DNA of 64,000 bases from Natronosalvus amylolyticus. Its GTDB lineage: Archaea; Halobacteriota; Halobacteria; Halobacteriales; Natrialbaceae. Positions 977-48,386 of the stretch are shown here, piece by piece (the first letter of the stretch is position 1; each line of letters opens with the position of its first letter). The DNA is taken from NCBI RefSeq assembly GCF_024298845.1, contig NZ_CP101156.1:1054001-1118000 (forward strand). Reading direction: 5' to 3'. The notes below the pieces were generated by a model that was given only the letters and a program-made list of their open reading frames with translations, made no database searches and had not been told where the DNA came from. Position numbers and translations under genes: made by a program.

Positions 977-1060
977 TATAGTAGCCAGTGAAACGATGTA
1001 CACATCTAACGCGACGCCCGCTTGCGATAGGGTGGGCAATGACTTTCACTGGCTACTATA
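977..1060 (+). repeat. Palindromic repeat family 1, copy 1 (84 bp)
   Basis: The ends are TATAGTAGCCAGTGAA and its complement TTCACTGGCTACTATA, giving a long imperfect hairpin. The left arm continues ACGATGTACAC and the right arm complement continues AGTCAGTGCAC-like sequence, so the two arms differ and the element can be oriented; this copy is taken as the plus orientation. The centre carries the shared CGCGACGC...CTTGCG segment. No open reading frame of its own is credible, so it looks like a non-autonomous (MITE/REP-like) element. Confidence 0.85.
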
Positions 1061-1163
1061 GAGACACCGACCGACGACGCACCCCTCGAGAGGACGGCGG
1101 ACACGAACCGCATCCTCGCGCCGAAAAGGTGCATTCAAGTATACGCCACGACTTCGTGTGGGT

Positions 1164-1535
1164 ATGCAAGACCAGGGACGCTCTACCCGCAAACGTACTG
1201 GCGGCCGACTGAAACCCTTCAAGAACCGACGCAAACACCAACTGGGCCGACATCCGACCGAGACGCAGGTCGGCGAACCTCGCTTCCGCGCCGTCGACGT
1301 TCGAGGGAACGGCGAGAAAACTCGTGCGCTGGCGACGAACGTGGCCAACGTGAACACGGGCGAGGACACGGTTACCGCAGACATCAACGACGTCGTCGAA
1401 AACGACGCCAACCCCAACTACGTCCGACGTAACATCATCACCAAGGGTGCCCTCATCGACACCAGCGAAGGCACTGCGCGCGTGACCTCGCGACCGGGTC
1501 AGACTGGCCAGGTCAACGCCGTTCTCGTCGAATAA
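1164..1535 (+). CDS. rps8e: 30S ribosomal protein S8e
   Basis: The 123-residue product starts MQDQGRSTRKRTGGRLKPF, the diagnostic N-terminus of archaeal S8e, and contains the conserved segments NVANVNT and NPNYVRRNIITKGA. It is a small-subunit ribosomal protein. The ATG at 1164 is preferred over an in-frame GTG two codons earlier because family members start at this Met. It is monocistronic here: the gene before it is a toxin-antitoxin pair and a palindromic repeat lies upstream, and the next gene is convergent. Confidence 0.95.
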   Translation: MQDQGRSTRKRTGGRLKPFKNRRKHQLGRHPTETQVGEPRFRAVDVRGNGEKTRALATNVANVNTGEDTVTADINDVVENDANPNYVRRNIITKGALIDTSEGTARVTSRPGQTGQVNAVLVE

Positions 1536-1712
1536 TCTCGAATACGCCGGCGGTTGGTAGTTCAGGCCGTCGGCGACCCACGCTGTTTTCGCTGGCAGTT
1601 CGACACCGGAACTGAGTCAGCGGTGATTGCACCGCCTATAGAGCGGTATCGCTCAGCAACTCGTCTGTCGTCGACAACAACGGCAAGCTCACGGGACGGG
1701 ACGAGGCTGCGA

Positions 1713-3194
1713 TCAGGAGTCTGCTTTCACGTTGTGGACGACCTCGAGTCGGTCTACCACGGTTGCGGTCTCACCTATCGCAGTCTCGATCACGTCACTG
1801 TTTTTGTACGCTCCTGGTGCTTCGTCGACCGGGAGAACGCTCGAGTGTACCCCGTTTGCCTCGAGTTCGGCCGCGATCGCCTCGGCATCGAACTCCTCGT
1901 GGGCCTGTGTCCGACTCATGACCCGACCCGCGCCGTGACACACGGAGTAGTTCCAGGCAGGATTTGACCGACCTTCACAGATGAGCGTGCCGTCGGCCAT
2001 ATTGAACGGGACGAGGACGCGCTCCCCTTCGTATGCACGCGTTGCGCCCTTCCGAATGATGCCGTCCCTGAAGTCGATGTAGTTGTGTGTCGATTCGATA
2101 CGGTCGTCGAGCGACGTGTCGAGGACATCGGCGACCGTTTCGATCATCACACGACGGTTTTCAGCAGCGTAGTGCTGACAAAAGACCATGTCGATGAGAT
2201 ACCGGGCGGCGTGTCGGCCCTCGAGATACGCGAGGTCGTCCCCCGTGGCTTCCTCCGGGTTCGGAACGGCAGCTTTCAACGCCGTGCTGACCGTTTCGAT
2301 TCGGGACGGGTCGTCCTCGAGGAAGTCGGCTTTGAGCGCCTCGTAGTCGACGAAATCTTCTCCCATACCGCCCTGTAACCACTCGAGAACGTCGCTGTCG
2401 CTGGTCTCTTTCGGATCGAACTCGAGATAACGCGTTGGATACGCCTCGAGTATTGCCCTGGCATCGTCGACCCTGTCATCGTGGAGACGGGCCGCTTCAG
2501 CCTGCCAGTACTCGGCCGTATTCGCGCCTAGCCCCCGACTGCCAGAGTGGACAACCACCCAGTACGCACCGGTCGTCTCACTCTGCCCAATCTCGAGAAA
2601 GTGGTTGCCAGAACCCAGCGTCCCCACGCTTTCGATGGCAGTTCGAACCGAAAAGTACGAACTCTGTGTGCCTGCCCGCTCGGCACAGAGCGTTTTGAAG
2701 TAGTCGAGGTCGTAGCCGCCCGCCTCGAGAAAGGACGCGAGCGTCTCGCGATAGTCCCCGTGAGCGACCTCGAGGAACGATTCGAGCCGCAGGTTCGCCC
2801 GTTTCCACGGAAACGAGTCACCAACGTGGTAGTACTCTCGTTCCGGGGCCTCGAGTCCGTCGGGGCCAAACCCCATCGGGATTCGTTCCCGGATAGCCTG
2901 ATCGAGCCCCTCTCCCTCGAGTGGAAGGTCGTCGCCAAGGAGTCCAGCCGTCATCCCGCAGCCGATGTCGACGCCGACGACGTTCGGGACGACGTACTCG
3001 CCCAGTGGCATGGTAAAGCCGACGACGCTTCCTTTTCCCCAGTGGGCGTCGGGCATGATGCGCACGGGCCCGTCGAAGGCCTCGTGATCGATCATCGTTC
3101 GAATCTGTGCGAGACAGGCATCGTCGATCAGGTTGCTGTCGCCGTCGACTCCCATGACGCGTGCGCAGGTTTCGGTGCCCTCGAGTTCGATCAT
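1713..3194 (-). CDS. RtcB-family RNA ligase
   Basis: A 493-residue RtcB-family protein. RtcB enzymes join 2',3'-cyclic phosphate and 5'-hydroxyl RNA ends with GTP and Mn2+, for tRNA splicing or RNA repair. Metal and guanylation motifs are all visible: VGVDIGCGM (Asp76, Cys79), SGNHF (His198), VVHSGSRG (His216), THNYID (His370) and the nucleophile in VCHGAGRVMSR (His420). The N-terminus (MIELEG, then RIMPDAHWGKGSVVGFT) resembles the bacterial-type RtcB branch rather than the canonical archaeal splicing ligase, so this may be a repair paralogue; that is an inference. ATG 3194 was chosen over an upstream in-frame TTG at 3206. Confidence 0.9.
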   Translation of the reverse strand: MIELEGTETCARVMGVDGDSNLIDDACLAQIRTMIDHEAFDGPVRIMPDAHWGKGSVVGFTMPLGEYVVPNVVGVDIGCGMTAGLLGDDLPLEGEGLDQAIRERIPMGFGPDGLEAPEREYYHVGDSFPWKRANLRLESFLEVAHGDYRETLASFLEAGGYDLDYFKTLCAERAGTQSSYFSVRTAIESVGTLGSGNHFLEIGQSETTGAYWVVVHSGSRGLGANTAEYWQAEAARLHDDRVDDARAILEAYPTRYLEFDPKETSDSDVLEWLQGGMGEDFVDYEALKADFLEDDPSRIETVSTALKAAVPNPEEATGDDLAYLEGRHAARYLIDMVFCQHYAAENRRVMIETVADVLDTSLDDRIESTHNYIDFRDGIIRKGATRAYEGERVLVPFNMADGTLICEGRSNPAWNYSVCHGAGRVMSRTQAHEEFDAEAIAAELEANGVHSSVLPVDEAPGAYKNSDVIETAIGETATVVDRLEVVHNVKADS

Positions 3195-47147: not shown

Positions 47148-47592
47148 CCTATAGGAGCCGGTGAAACGATGTATACACCCGCTCGAATCGCCGGCTTGCG
47201 AGCGTTTGCAGTGACTGTGACTGGCGACTATCGGGAATCGCTCCGACGGCGGAGGCTTCCGGATTCCCCTGGAGTAACCACGAACTACTTTCGACCGAAT
47301 CGAGGGCTGTGTGTAGCTCAAGCACGAGAGTACAACACACGTGCATTCTCGATAAATTACCAGTGAGAAACAGTAGCTTACGGGAGGTACCAATACTCAC
47401 GAAAAGCCGTAATTCACGATATACAGACGCTCATACGGCCTGATGGATGAATACAACTAGCGTGAAATCTGCGCCAATTTTCAGCAGTTAGCGTTCACCC
47501 CCAAGTACCGCGAGCGGTAATGCACACCTAATGAACCTCGAGACGATAACCGTCGATTACTCCGCTCGATCAGTTCGGTCGGTGAGTGTTCG
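47148..47592. other. Gene-free stretch between two Bat-type regulators
   Basis: Contains repeat copy 6 and then about 360 bp without a coding frame. The last part, before the next gene, should carry its promoter; no single TATA box stands out. Confidence 0.5.
47150..47231 (+). repeat. Palindromic repeat family 1, copy 6 (diverged)
   Basis: Ends TATAGGAGCCGGTGAA and TGACTGGCGACTAT, plus orientation, with CGATGTATACACCC in the left arm. More mutated than the other copies, and its centre differs. It begins 2 bp after the stop codon of the regulator gene. Confidence 0.7.
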
Positions 47593-48300
47593 ATGAGCGC
47601 ACAATCTGCAGACACCGGGCAACCGGGCGTGAGTGCGCTCGAGGATGGCATCGTCGTCGAACTCGAACTCGAACATCCCTCACTGTTGTTGGGGTCGACA
47701 CTCCGACGATTTCCTGCAGTTTCGATTACCCTCGAGTACTGGTCGGAGCTGGATGATGGGCGAACGATGGTCTTCTTTACCGTTCGCTGTGCGGACGACG
47801 ACCTCGATCCCTTCGAGGCAGCGCTGGCGGCCGATCCGACGATTTCCGACGCAACGTTCGTCGACGAGTACCCCAGAAAGCGCGTCTATCGCGCCGAAAT
47901 CACCGAGGACACGCTTCGGGTGACCAGCCAGATTACCGAGGCAGGCGGACACATTCTCGATCGCTCGAGCGGCCAGACCGGCTGGACGGTTCAGATTCGG
48001 TTTCCCGATCGTGACGGGCTGGTTGCGTTCAACCGCTCGTGTGACAGTCGAGATATCTCGTTTCACGTGACCCAGTTGCGTATGGCCAAACCCGGCGAGC
48101 GGGCCGTCCTCGGTCTGACGCAGAAACAGGAAGCGCTGTTGCGTGTTGCCTACGAGGAAGGCTACTTCGAGGTCCCACGCGGCATCTCACAGGACGAACT
48201 GGCCGACCGCCTGAACGTCTCCAAATCGGCCGTCTCCCAGCGCCTTCGACGAGCGATGAACGAACTGTGTGCGTCGTCGCTGTCGAACGCTCCGAAGTAA
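47593..48300 (+). CDS. Short Bat-type HTH-10 transcription regulator
   Basis: A 235-residue regulator: bacterioopsin-activator domain (about 20-170, EDGIVVELELEHPSLLLGSTLRRF... TGWTVQIRFPDRDGLVAFNRSC) and HTH-10 (about 178-230, LTQKQEALLRVAYEEGYFEVPRGISQDELADRLNVSKSAVSQRLRRAMNEL). Target unknown. It lies in tandem with the larger GAF-Bat regulator. Repeat family 1 copy 7 starts 2 bp after the stop. Confidence 0.88.
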   Translation: MSAQSADTGQPGVSALEDGIVVELELEHPSLLLGSTLRRFPAVSITLEYWSELDDGRTMVFFTVRCADDDLDPFEAALAADPTISDATFVDEYPRKRVYRAEITEDTLRVTSQITEAGGHILDRSSGQTGWTVQIRFPDRDGLVAFNRSCDSRDISFHVTQLRMAKPGERAVLGLTQKQEALLRVAYEEGYFEVPRGISQDELADRLNVSKSAVSQRLRRAMNELCASSLSNAPK

Positions 48301-48302
48301 AC

Positions 48303-48386
48303 TATAGTAGCCAGTGAAAGTCAGTGCACACCCTCTCCCAATCGTGCGTCGCGGTCGGTGTGTACCTCGGTTCACTGGCTACTATA
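48303..48386 (-). repeat. Palindromic repeat family 1, copy 7
   Basis: TATAGTAGCCAGTGAAAGTC at the left end and GGTTCACTGGCTACTATA at the right; inverted orientation; near-consensus. It begins 2 bp after the stop of the short regulator and ends about 115 bp before the end of the convergent antiporter gene. Confidence 0.88.

Follow-up and report, generated by a model that had tools for sequence, protein, structure and literature searches.

A gene-free 84-bp palindrome dispersed in haloarchaeal genomes, probably a miniature element with IS630-type ends

A palindromic element of 82-84 bp, here called the 84-mer, occurs in seven copies in a 64,000-nucleotide stretch of the genome of Natronosalvus amylolyticus (contig NZ_CP101156.1, positions 1,054,001 to 1,118,000; hereafter the window). 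It is present in many further copies and carries no transposase gene, and it is probably (a probability of roughly 0.8) a miniature inverted-repeat transposable element (MITE) composed of two IS630-type ends around a hairpin core and moved in trans, in the manner of the RUP elements of Streptococcus pneumoniae. In the proposed model, the element would consist of a short, gene-free hairpin core between the left and right recognition ends of an IS630-type insertion sequence (IS); a transposase of the IS630 family, supplied in trans, would bind these ends and cut the element out; and insertion would then take place at TA, with a preference for CTAG, leaving C-TA-(about 80 bp)-TA-G.

Dispersal and insertion at TA

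The seven copies in the window were recovered by sequence comparison, and the same seven were returned by a genome-wide search; their positions and orientations (Table 1) are those that an earlier reading, made from the letters of the window alone, had assigned. The consensus folds much better than its own shuffles (z -7.96), the 16-mer at its end occurs 13 times in the window with up to three mismatches against a mean of 0.06 in shuffled sequence, and terminal inverted repeats are formed by 17 outer pairs, in which 90.8% of cells are paired among 28 copies from other genomes. A sequence model built from 20 copies and searched against the 4.22-Mb Natronosalvus genome found at least 122 distinct sites, a lower bound from 150 scored candidates that included reverse-strand duplicates. 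On the 3.52-Mb contig lie 107 of these copies and on the 417-kb contig 15, with 68 on the minus and 54 on the plus strand. The sequence-only reading had proposed such a profile search and had expected hundreds of copies; many more did emerge, but its figure is too high as far as can be seen. Extrapolation from the window would give about 460, and the window is denser than the genome mean (7 copies versus 1.85 expected, Poisson P 0.003).

A comparison with 1,197,000 bases of the nearest relative (G004) located both flanks together for 30 of the 122 copies. Two of these 30 sites are cleanly empty in the relative and show a single TA in place of the TA-element-TA of this genome, reading CTCGAGT-TA-GCTTC at C1:3474360 and GGTAGG-TA-GAACACC at C5:345030. 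At a third, window copy 4, the site is empty to exactly 2 bases, with GG in place of TA-element-TA. Two further sites, near-exact but lacking a clean TA, also fit insertion: C1:138974, where 1 base remains, and C5:261820, where 2 bases remain next to a half-element. Seven of the 30 sites are occupied in the relative at about element length (e.g., C1:1905292, C1:14764, C1:3439736, C5:307394 and C5:308031), and window copy 6 has a diverged counterpart at the same place; the remaining comparable sites are diverged or rearranged and uninformative. The shared copy at G000 C5:308031-308114 and G004 C12:292115-292200 differs at 9 of 84 bases, with a left flank 99% and a right flank 87% identical, perhaps through conversion or a local excess of mutation.

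The bases that adjoin the element agree with these sites. Among 81 copies scoring above 70, out of 110 with anchorable ends, C adjoins the conserved TATA from outside at the left end in 54% and G does so at the right end in 70%, and no target duplication of 2-9 bp was detected around the ends beyond the TATA itself (best excess identity over mismatched partners 0.053). In another genome (G127), seven identical copies occupy seven sites, with G as the right neighbor in 7/7 and C as the left neighbor in 6/7. Because the empty sites contain a single TA and the copies stand in a C|TA...TA|G setting, the preferred target is CTAG, with TA duplicated. The suggestion that the palindrome is a non-autonomous mobile hairpin, to be checked by empty sites and target duplications, is thus borne out by its dispersal, its presence or absence at orthologous sites and the single-TA empty sites.

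Ends shared with IS630-type insertion sequences

IS630 elements are known for TA duplication, and matches to their transposase domain, DDE_3, were found in 71 of the 121 genomes of the family Natrialbaceae that were searched. The main IS630-type clade has TAGTA at its ends and measures 1,055-1,059 bp with both TA pairs included; its consensus ends are TATAGTAACCGTTAGAA on the start-codon side and TATAGTAGACGTTAGAAATAATTGCTCAC on the other. In 31 TAGTA-ended elements, C precedes the left TA in 27/31 and G follows the right TA in 27/31, the setting in which the 84-mer is also found. The sequence-only reading had proposed to look for a transposase with inverted repeats matching the palindrome; IS630-type elements share its TAGTA terminus and its C|TA...TA|G setting, the likeness being distant.

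The arms of the 84-mer in this genome, TATAGTAGCCAGTGAAACGATTTACACACC and TATAGTAGCCAGTGAAAGTCATTGCACACC, were compared with an end profile made from 31 of 51 loci (L283-L333), from which fragments, other clades, duplicates and loci cut by contig ends had been left out, as had L301 and L311, whose ends are recognizable but whose automatic boundaries were off. The test covered positions 9-30, and thus not the shared TATAGTAG, with all 22-mers of the window as background. The right arm matches the IS 3′ ends with p 1.6e-5, a score that none of 2000 column-shuffled profiles reaches, and the left arm matches the IS 5′ ends with p 1.6e-4; the swapped pairings are weaker (p 3.0e-3 and 1.1e-3), the left arm on the 3′ profile being equaled by 8 of 2000 shuffles. 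With p < 1e-3 as the limit, the 3′ profile is fitted by the right arm in 36 of 41 full-length copies and by the left arm in 6, and the 5′ profile by the left arm in 33. The 28 copies from other genomes begin with TAGTAAC on the left arm in 15 cases and with TAGTAGC on the right arm in 24, which are the starts of the consensus IS 5′ and 3′ ends, respectively, and the subterminal motif ATTGC-CAC lies in ungapped register with the IS 3′ end. The ends therefore resemble those of an autonomous IS630-family element, although distantly and without a full match.

Since the unlike IS ends correspond, side for side, to the unlike arms of the 84-mer in this genome, the asymmetric inner arm by which each copy can be oriented is probably, although not certainly, the difference between two unlike IS ends. 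We infer an IS630-family enzyme as the mover and a parent from the TAGTA-ended clade whose two different ends gave rise to the unlike arms. Other IS630 clades were considered as parents and set aside: among 20 further DDE_3 loci (L349-L368), five are TAGTA-ended (L361 and L365-L368), and for the non-TAGTA ones other ends or none were found. In one genome (G032), an IS630 element lies inside a palindrome copy, apparently at CTAG (L283:1363-2503).

Alternative explanations

Several observations weigh against an IS630-type origin. Absolute profile scores are low, and beyond TATAGTAG the likeness is distant. In the consensus of other genera, the left arm scores slightly better on the IS 3′ profile (3.7e-4) than on the 5′ profile (7.0e-4), and only the right arm keeps its preference (2.0e-4 vs 9.5e-3). 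Clean single-TA empty sites were found at only 2/30 comparable sites, and the right flank of one of them, C1:3474360, is present twice in the relative. Among the IS630-type loci examined, no autonomous element shares both complete ends. A DDE_3 match is present in 18 of 29 element-bearing genomes of the family and missing in 11, and the association of the two is not significant (18/11 vs 3/5, Fisher P 0.25); in one genome with four identical copies (G179), DDE_3 is represented only by a broken fragment, and the TAGTA-type IS630 copy of the present genome is interrupted by an in-frame stop and decayed at one end. Arguments from the absence of a parent or of DDE_3 are weakened by the tendency of draft assemblies to lose multi-copy IS elements. 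The same facts, in particular the identical copies in G179, the carriers that lack a match, the distant likeness of the ends and the lost preference of the left arm, would favor a MITE whose transposase came from another or an undetected family, the likeness to IS630 reflecting convergence on TA or CTAG targets. This explanation is unlikely, given that the TAGTA terminus, the CTAG setting, the TA duplication and the ungapped register of ATTGC-CAC are all common to the palindrome and the IS630-type elements.

A further question is whether the hairpin itself is functional. The sequence-only reading held that the copies differ in sequence but keep their pairing, which is weak within this genome, where only 1 of 20 predicted pairs is changed on both sides among 20 copies, and is clear only across genera. 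In the 28 copies from other genomes, which come from two families, 91.0% of cells are paired, and changes on both sides affect 8 of 31 pairs versus 4.0 in shuffles (1/500 shuffles reach it), a count that related rows inflate and that arm-to-arm correction in quasi-palindromes could also produce. The covariation score of the whole hairpin in these copies is 0.113 versus 0.048 in shuffles (0/500). The inner stem alone contains CG/UA and GC/AU/UA exchanges and has a covariation score of 0.251 versus 0.128, although its number of pairs changed on both sides does not exceed that of shuffles (210/500 reach it). Judging from this alignment, the hairpin is likely to have been kept across genera. The unlike internal loop, CGAT versus TGAC, is also largely kept in copies from two archaeal families. 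A kink-turn, suspected by eye from tandem G.A pairs in this loop, was rejected, since no 3-nt bulge exists in that register and RNAalifold prefers another. For transposition of an IS630-type element a hairpin is not expected to be needed. Because the stem covaries and the loop is largely kept, the folded single strand, as extruded DNA or as transcript, might itself be recognized, either in IS630-type transposition or, at gene 3′ ends, in the form of a processed RNA, but this is a rather doubtful possibility.

The conserved pairing would also be accounted for if the palindrome were primarily a structured RNA or a 3′-end element (a terminator, mRNA stabilizer or processing site) that had spread for its useful transcript, with mobility being secondary. 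The gene context has a feature that favors this idea. According to a codon-usage gene caller trained on 15 long open reading frames (ORFs) of the window, which gives approximate distances, 115 of the 122 copies are intergenic with a called gene on each side, 2 overlap one and 5 lack a flank, and 30 of 113 adjoining gene 3′ ends but only 1 of 117 gene starts lie within 20 bp of a copy. The avoidance of starts, however, would also result from selection against promoter damage, and orientation relative to tandem genes is even (25 same, 32 opposite). An Rfam scan of the window returned two tRNAs above the gathering score and no RNA family at the element copies, the inner stem gives no excess of changes on both sides, and three of the seven congeners examined (G001, G006 and G007) have no match to the element. 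An RNA function as the reason for the spread is accordingly less likely still than another transposase.

Neither inverted terminal repeats nor a TA duplication is a feature of Y1 transposases. REP/BIME units (repetitive extragenic palindromes and bacterial interspersed mosaic elements) are often clustered and alternating, and accompany a Y1 (RAYT) transposase that has the palindrome on its own flanks. That the 84-mer is of the REP/BIME or PATE type and owes its movement to a Y1 transposase (IS200/IS605, RAYT), the former likeness having been raised by the sequence-only reading, is very improbable: the palindrome does have GTAG letters near its end and this genome does have Y1 genes, but of 8 Y1 loci from three carriers only one contains a copy, which is partial, Y1 matches are absent from 2 of 5 carriers tested, the long inverted ends and the single-TA empty sites disfavor it, and units of 82-84 bp, of which 13 of 122 have another within 1 kb, differ in size and clustering from REP/BIME units of 20-40 bp (PMC3733652, in its available part).

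Occurrence in other genomes

The palindrome was thought to be possibly specific to this lineage, which is wrong. It matches 30 of 61 genomes examined and 4 of 7 congeners, and in a survey of the class at a threshold of E 1e-6, 85 of 292 genomes (the first and last counts include the present genome). The latter represent four families, with most matches in Natrialbaceae (f1), 20 in f4, presumably Haloarculaceae, 6 with weak scores in f5 and 1 in f7. Matches were also obtained in 31 plasmid records, among them those of Haloarcula hispanica (plasmid pHH400 carries copies), Halomicrobium mukohataei, Natrialba magadii and Natrinema; no phage record matched at E 0.01. Such a patchy occurrence, even within the genus, is more in keeping with a mobile element than with a regulatory site passed on by descent.

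Longer versions exist in other genera (L150:1501-1622, L154:1501-1607 and L153:1501-1595), with similar arms and an enlarged, differently paired core, as if the core were replaceable. Close pairs of copies 5-8 bp apart in one genome (G026; L338, L339 and L340) were considered as tandem arrays and rejected: all three pairs, when read, have N in the gap, and they are most likely scaffold joins. Similar apparent tandem pairs, with copies a few bases apart, occur in G083.

Copies and related features in the window

Pfam scans of ten ORFs neighboring the copies gave ordinary genes and no transposase. The ORF downstream of the lone half-end (Table 1) has a DegT/DnrJ-type aminotransferase match, and a second half-end without a partner arm was found at L334:2530-2545. 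This genome also has a second palindromic family, about 85 bp long, whose two ends differ (GTGGCTTCCCAAACCTG and GTACCCTCCCAAACGTCGAC); CTA and TAG often stand at its borders, and it sometimes adjoins the 84-mer (L038, L209). It follows the same plan as the 84-mer, with ends similar to those of a different IS630 clade (L359, L360).

Table 1. Positions of the 84-mer and related features; coordinates refer to the window unless a locus is named.
Feature	Position	Strand	Length	Remarks
Copy 1	977-1060	+	84 bp	left (IS 5′-type) arm first
Copy 2	21328-21410	-	83 bp	
Copy 3	29264-29346	+	83 bp	54 bp from stop side of gene called at 29400-30728 (-)
Copy 4	38398-38480	-	83 bp	starts 7 bases beyond end of gene called at 37228-38391
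Copy 5	40871-40952	+	82 bp	decayed left end
Copy 6	47150-47232	+		diverged; starts 3 bases beyond end of gene called at 44976-47147
Copy 7	48303-48386	-	84 bp	starts 3 bases beyond end of gene called at 47593-48300
Lone half-end of element	59147-59162	+		ends 3 bp before ORF starting at 59165
Second palindromic family	34661-34760; L005:1298-1385; L038:1585-1670; L209:1418-1500			

Comparison with known elements and significance

Statements on published elements refer here to the available parts of the sources cited. The closest analogue is RUP, which is 107 bp long, has about 110 copies per genome and no gene, uses a TA target, is predicted to fold with paired ends, and has ends like those of an IS630-family IS, so that it has been proposed to be moved in trans by IS630-Spn1 (PMC3049150, PMC2229807); a TA duplication is stated for both RUP and IS630-Spn1 (PMC2229807). 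The 84-mer shares with RUP its small size, the lack of a gene, the approximate copy number, the TA target, the IS630-like ends and a predicted fold that pairs these ends, but belongs to another domain of life, has another sequence, forms one palindrome over nearly the whole unit, has consistently unlike arms and is spread over several archaeal families. The Correia/NEMIS elements of Neisseria are likewise short, TA-ended MITEs with inverted ends, presumably of unrelated sequence, and no IS with matching ends is named for them in the available text of PMC2229807.

In haloarchaea, the MITEs and SMR-A of Haloquadratum walsbyi are transposase-free repeats with inverted ends, as is the 84-mer. SMR-A is about 110 bp long with up to 54 copies per genome, has no target duplication and no known transposase, and inserts into PATEs, which are without inverted ends or duplications, and into IS605-type elements (PMC3119063). 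The 84-mer differs from SMR-A in duplicating TA and in lying mostly between called genes. Within Natrialbaceae, the TAGTA-ended IS630-type elements are like the 84-mer in their terminus, their C-TA...TA-G setting and their unlike left and right ends, and unlike it in encoding a DDE_3 transposase and in their inner end sequence. The term IS630 does not occur in the available text of the Haloquadratum repeat paper (PMC3119063) or of a review of prokaryotic MITEs that lists archaeal ones in Sulfolobus, Halobacterium, Haloquadratum and others (PMC10969869), and neither it nor "palindrom" occurs in that of the Natrialba magadii genome paper (PMC3403918). No published description of the 84-mer family was found in the open-license literature, a search that did not cover ISfinder. 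The kind of element is thus known from bacteria, and this haloarchaeal family is apparently undescribed.

The 84-mer would account for many unannotated intergenic palindromes in haloarchaeal genomes. As a haloarchaeal counterpart of the pneumococcal RUP, it would represent one widespread and countable MITE family with likely IS relatives, through which copy bursts, cross-mobilization and effects on gene ends would be open to study in tractable hosts such as Haloarcula hispanica.

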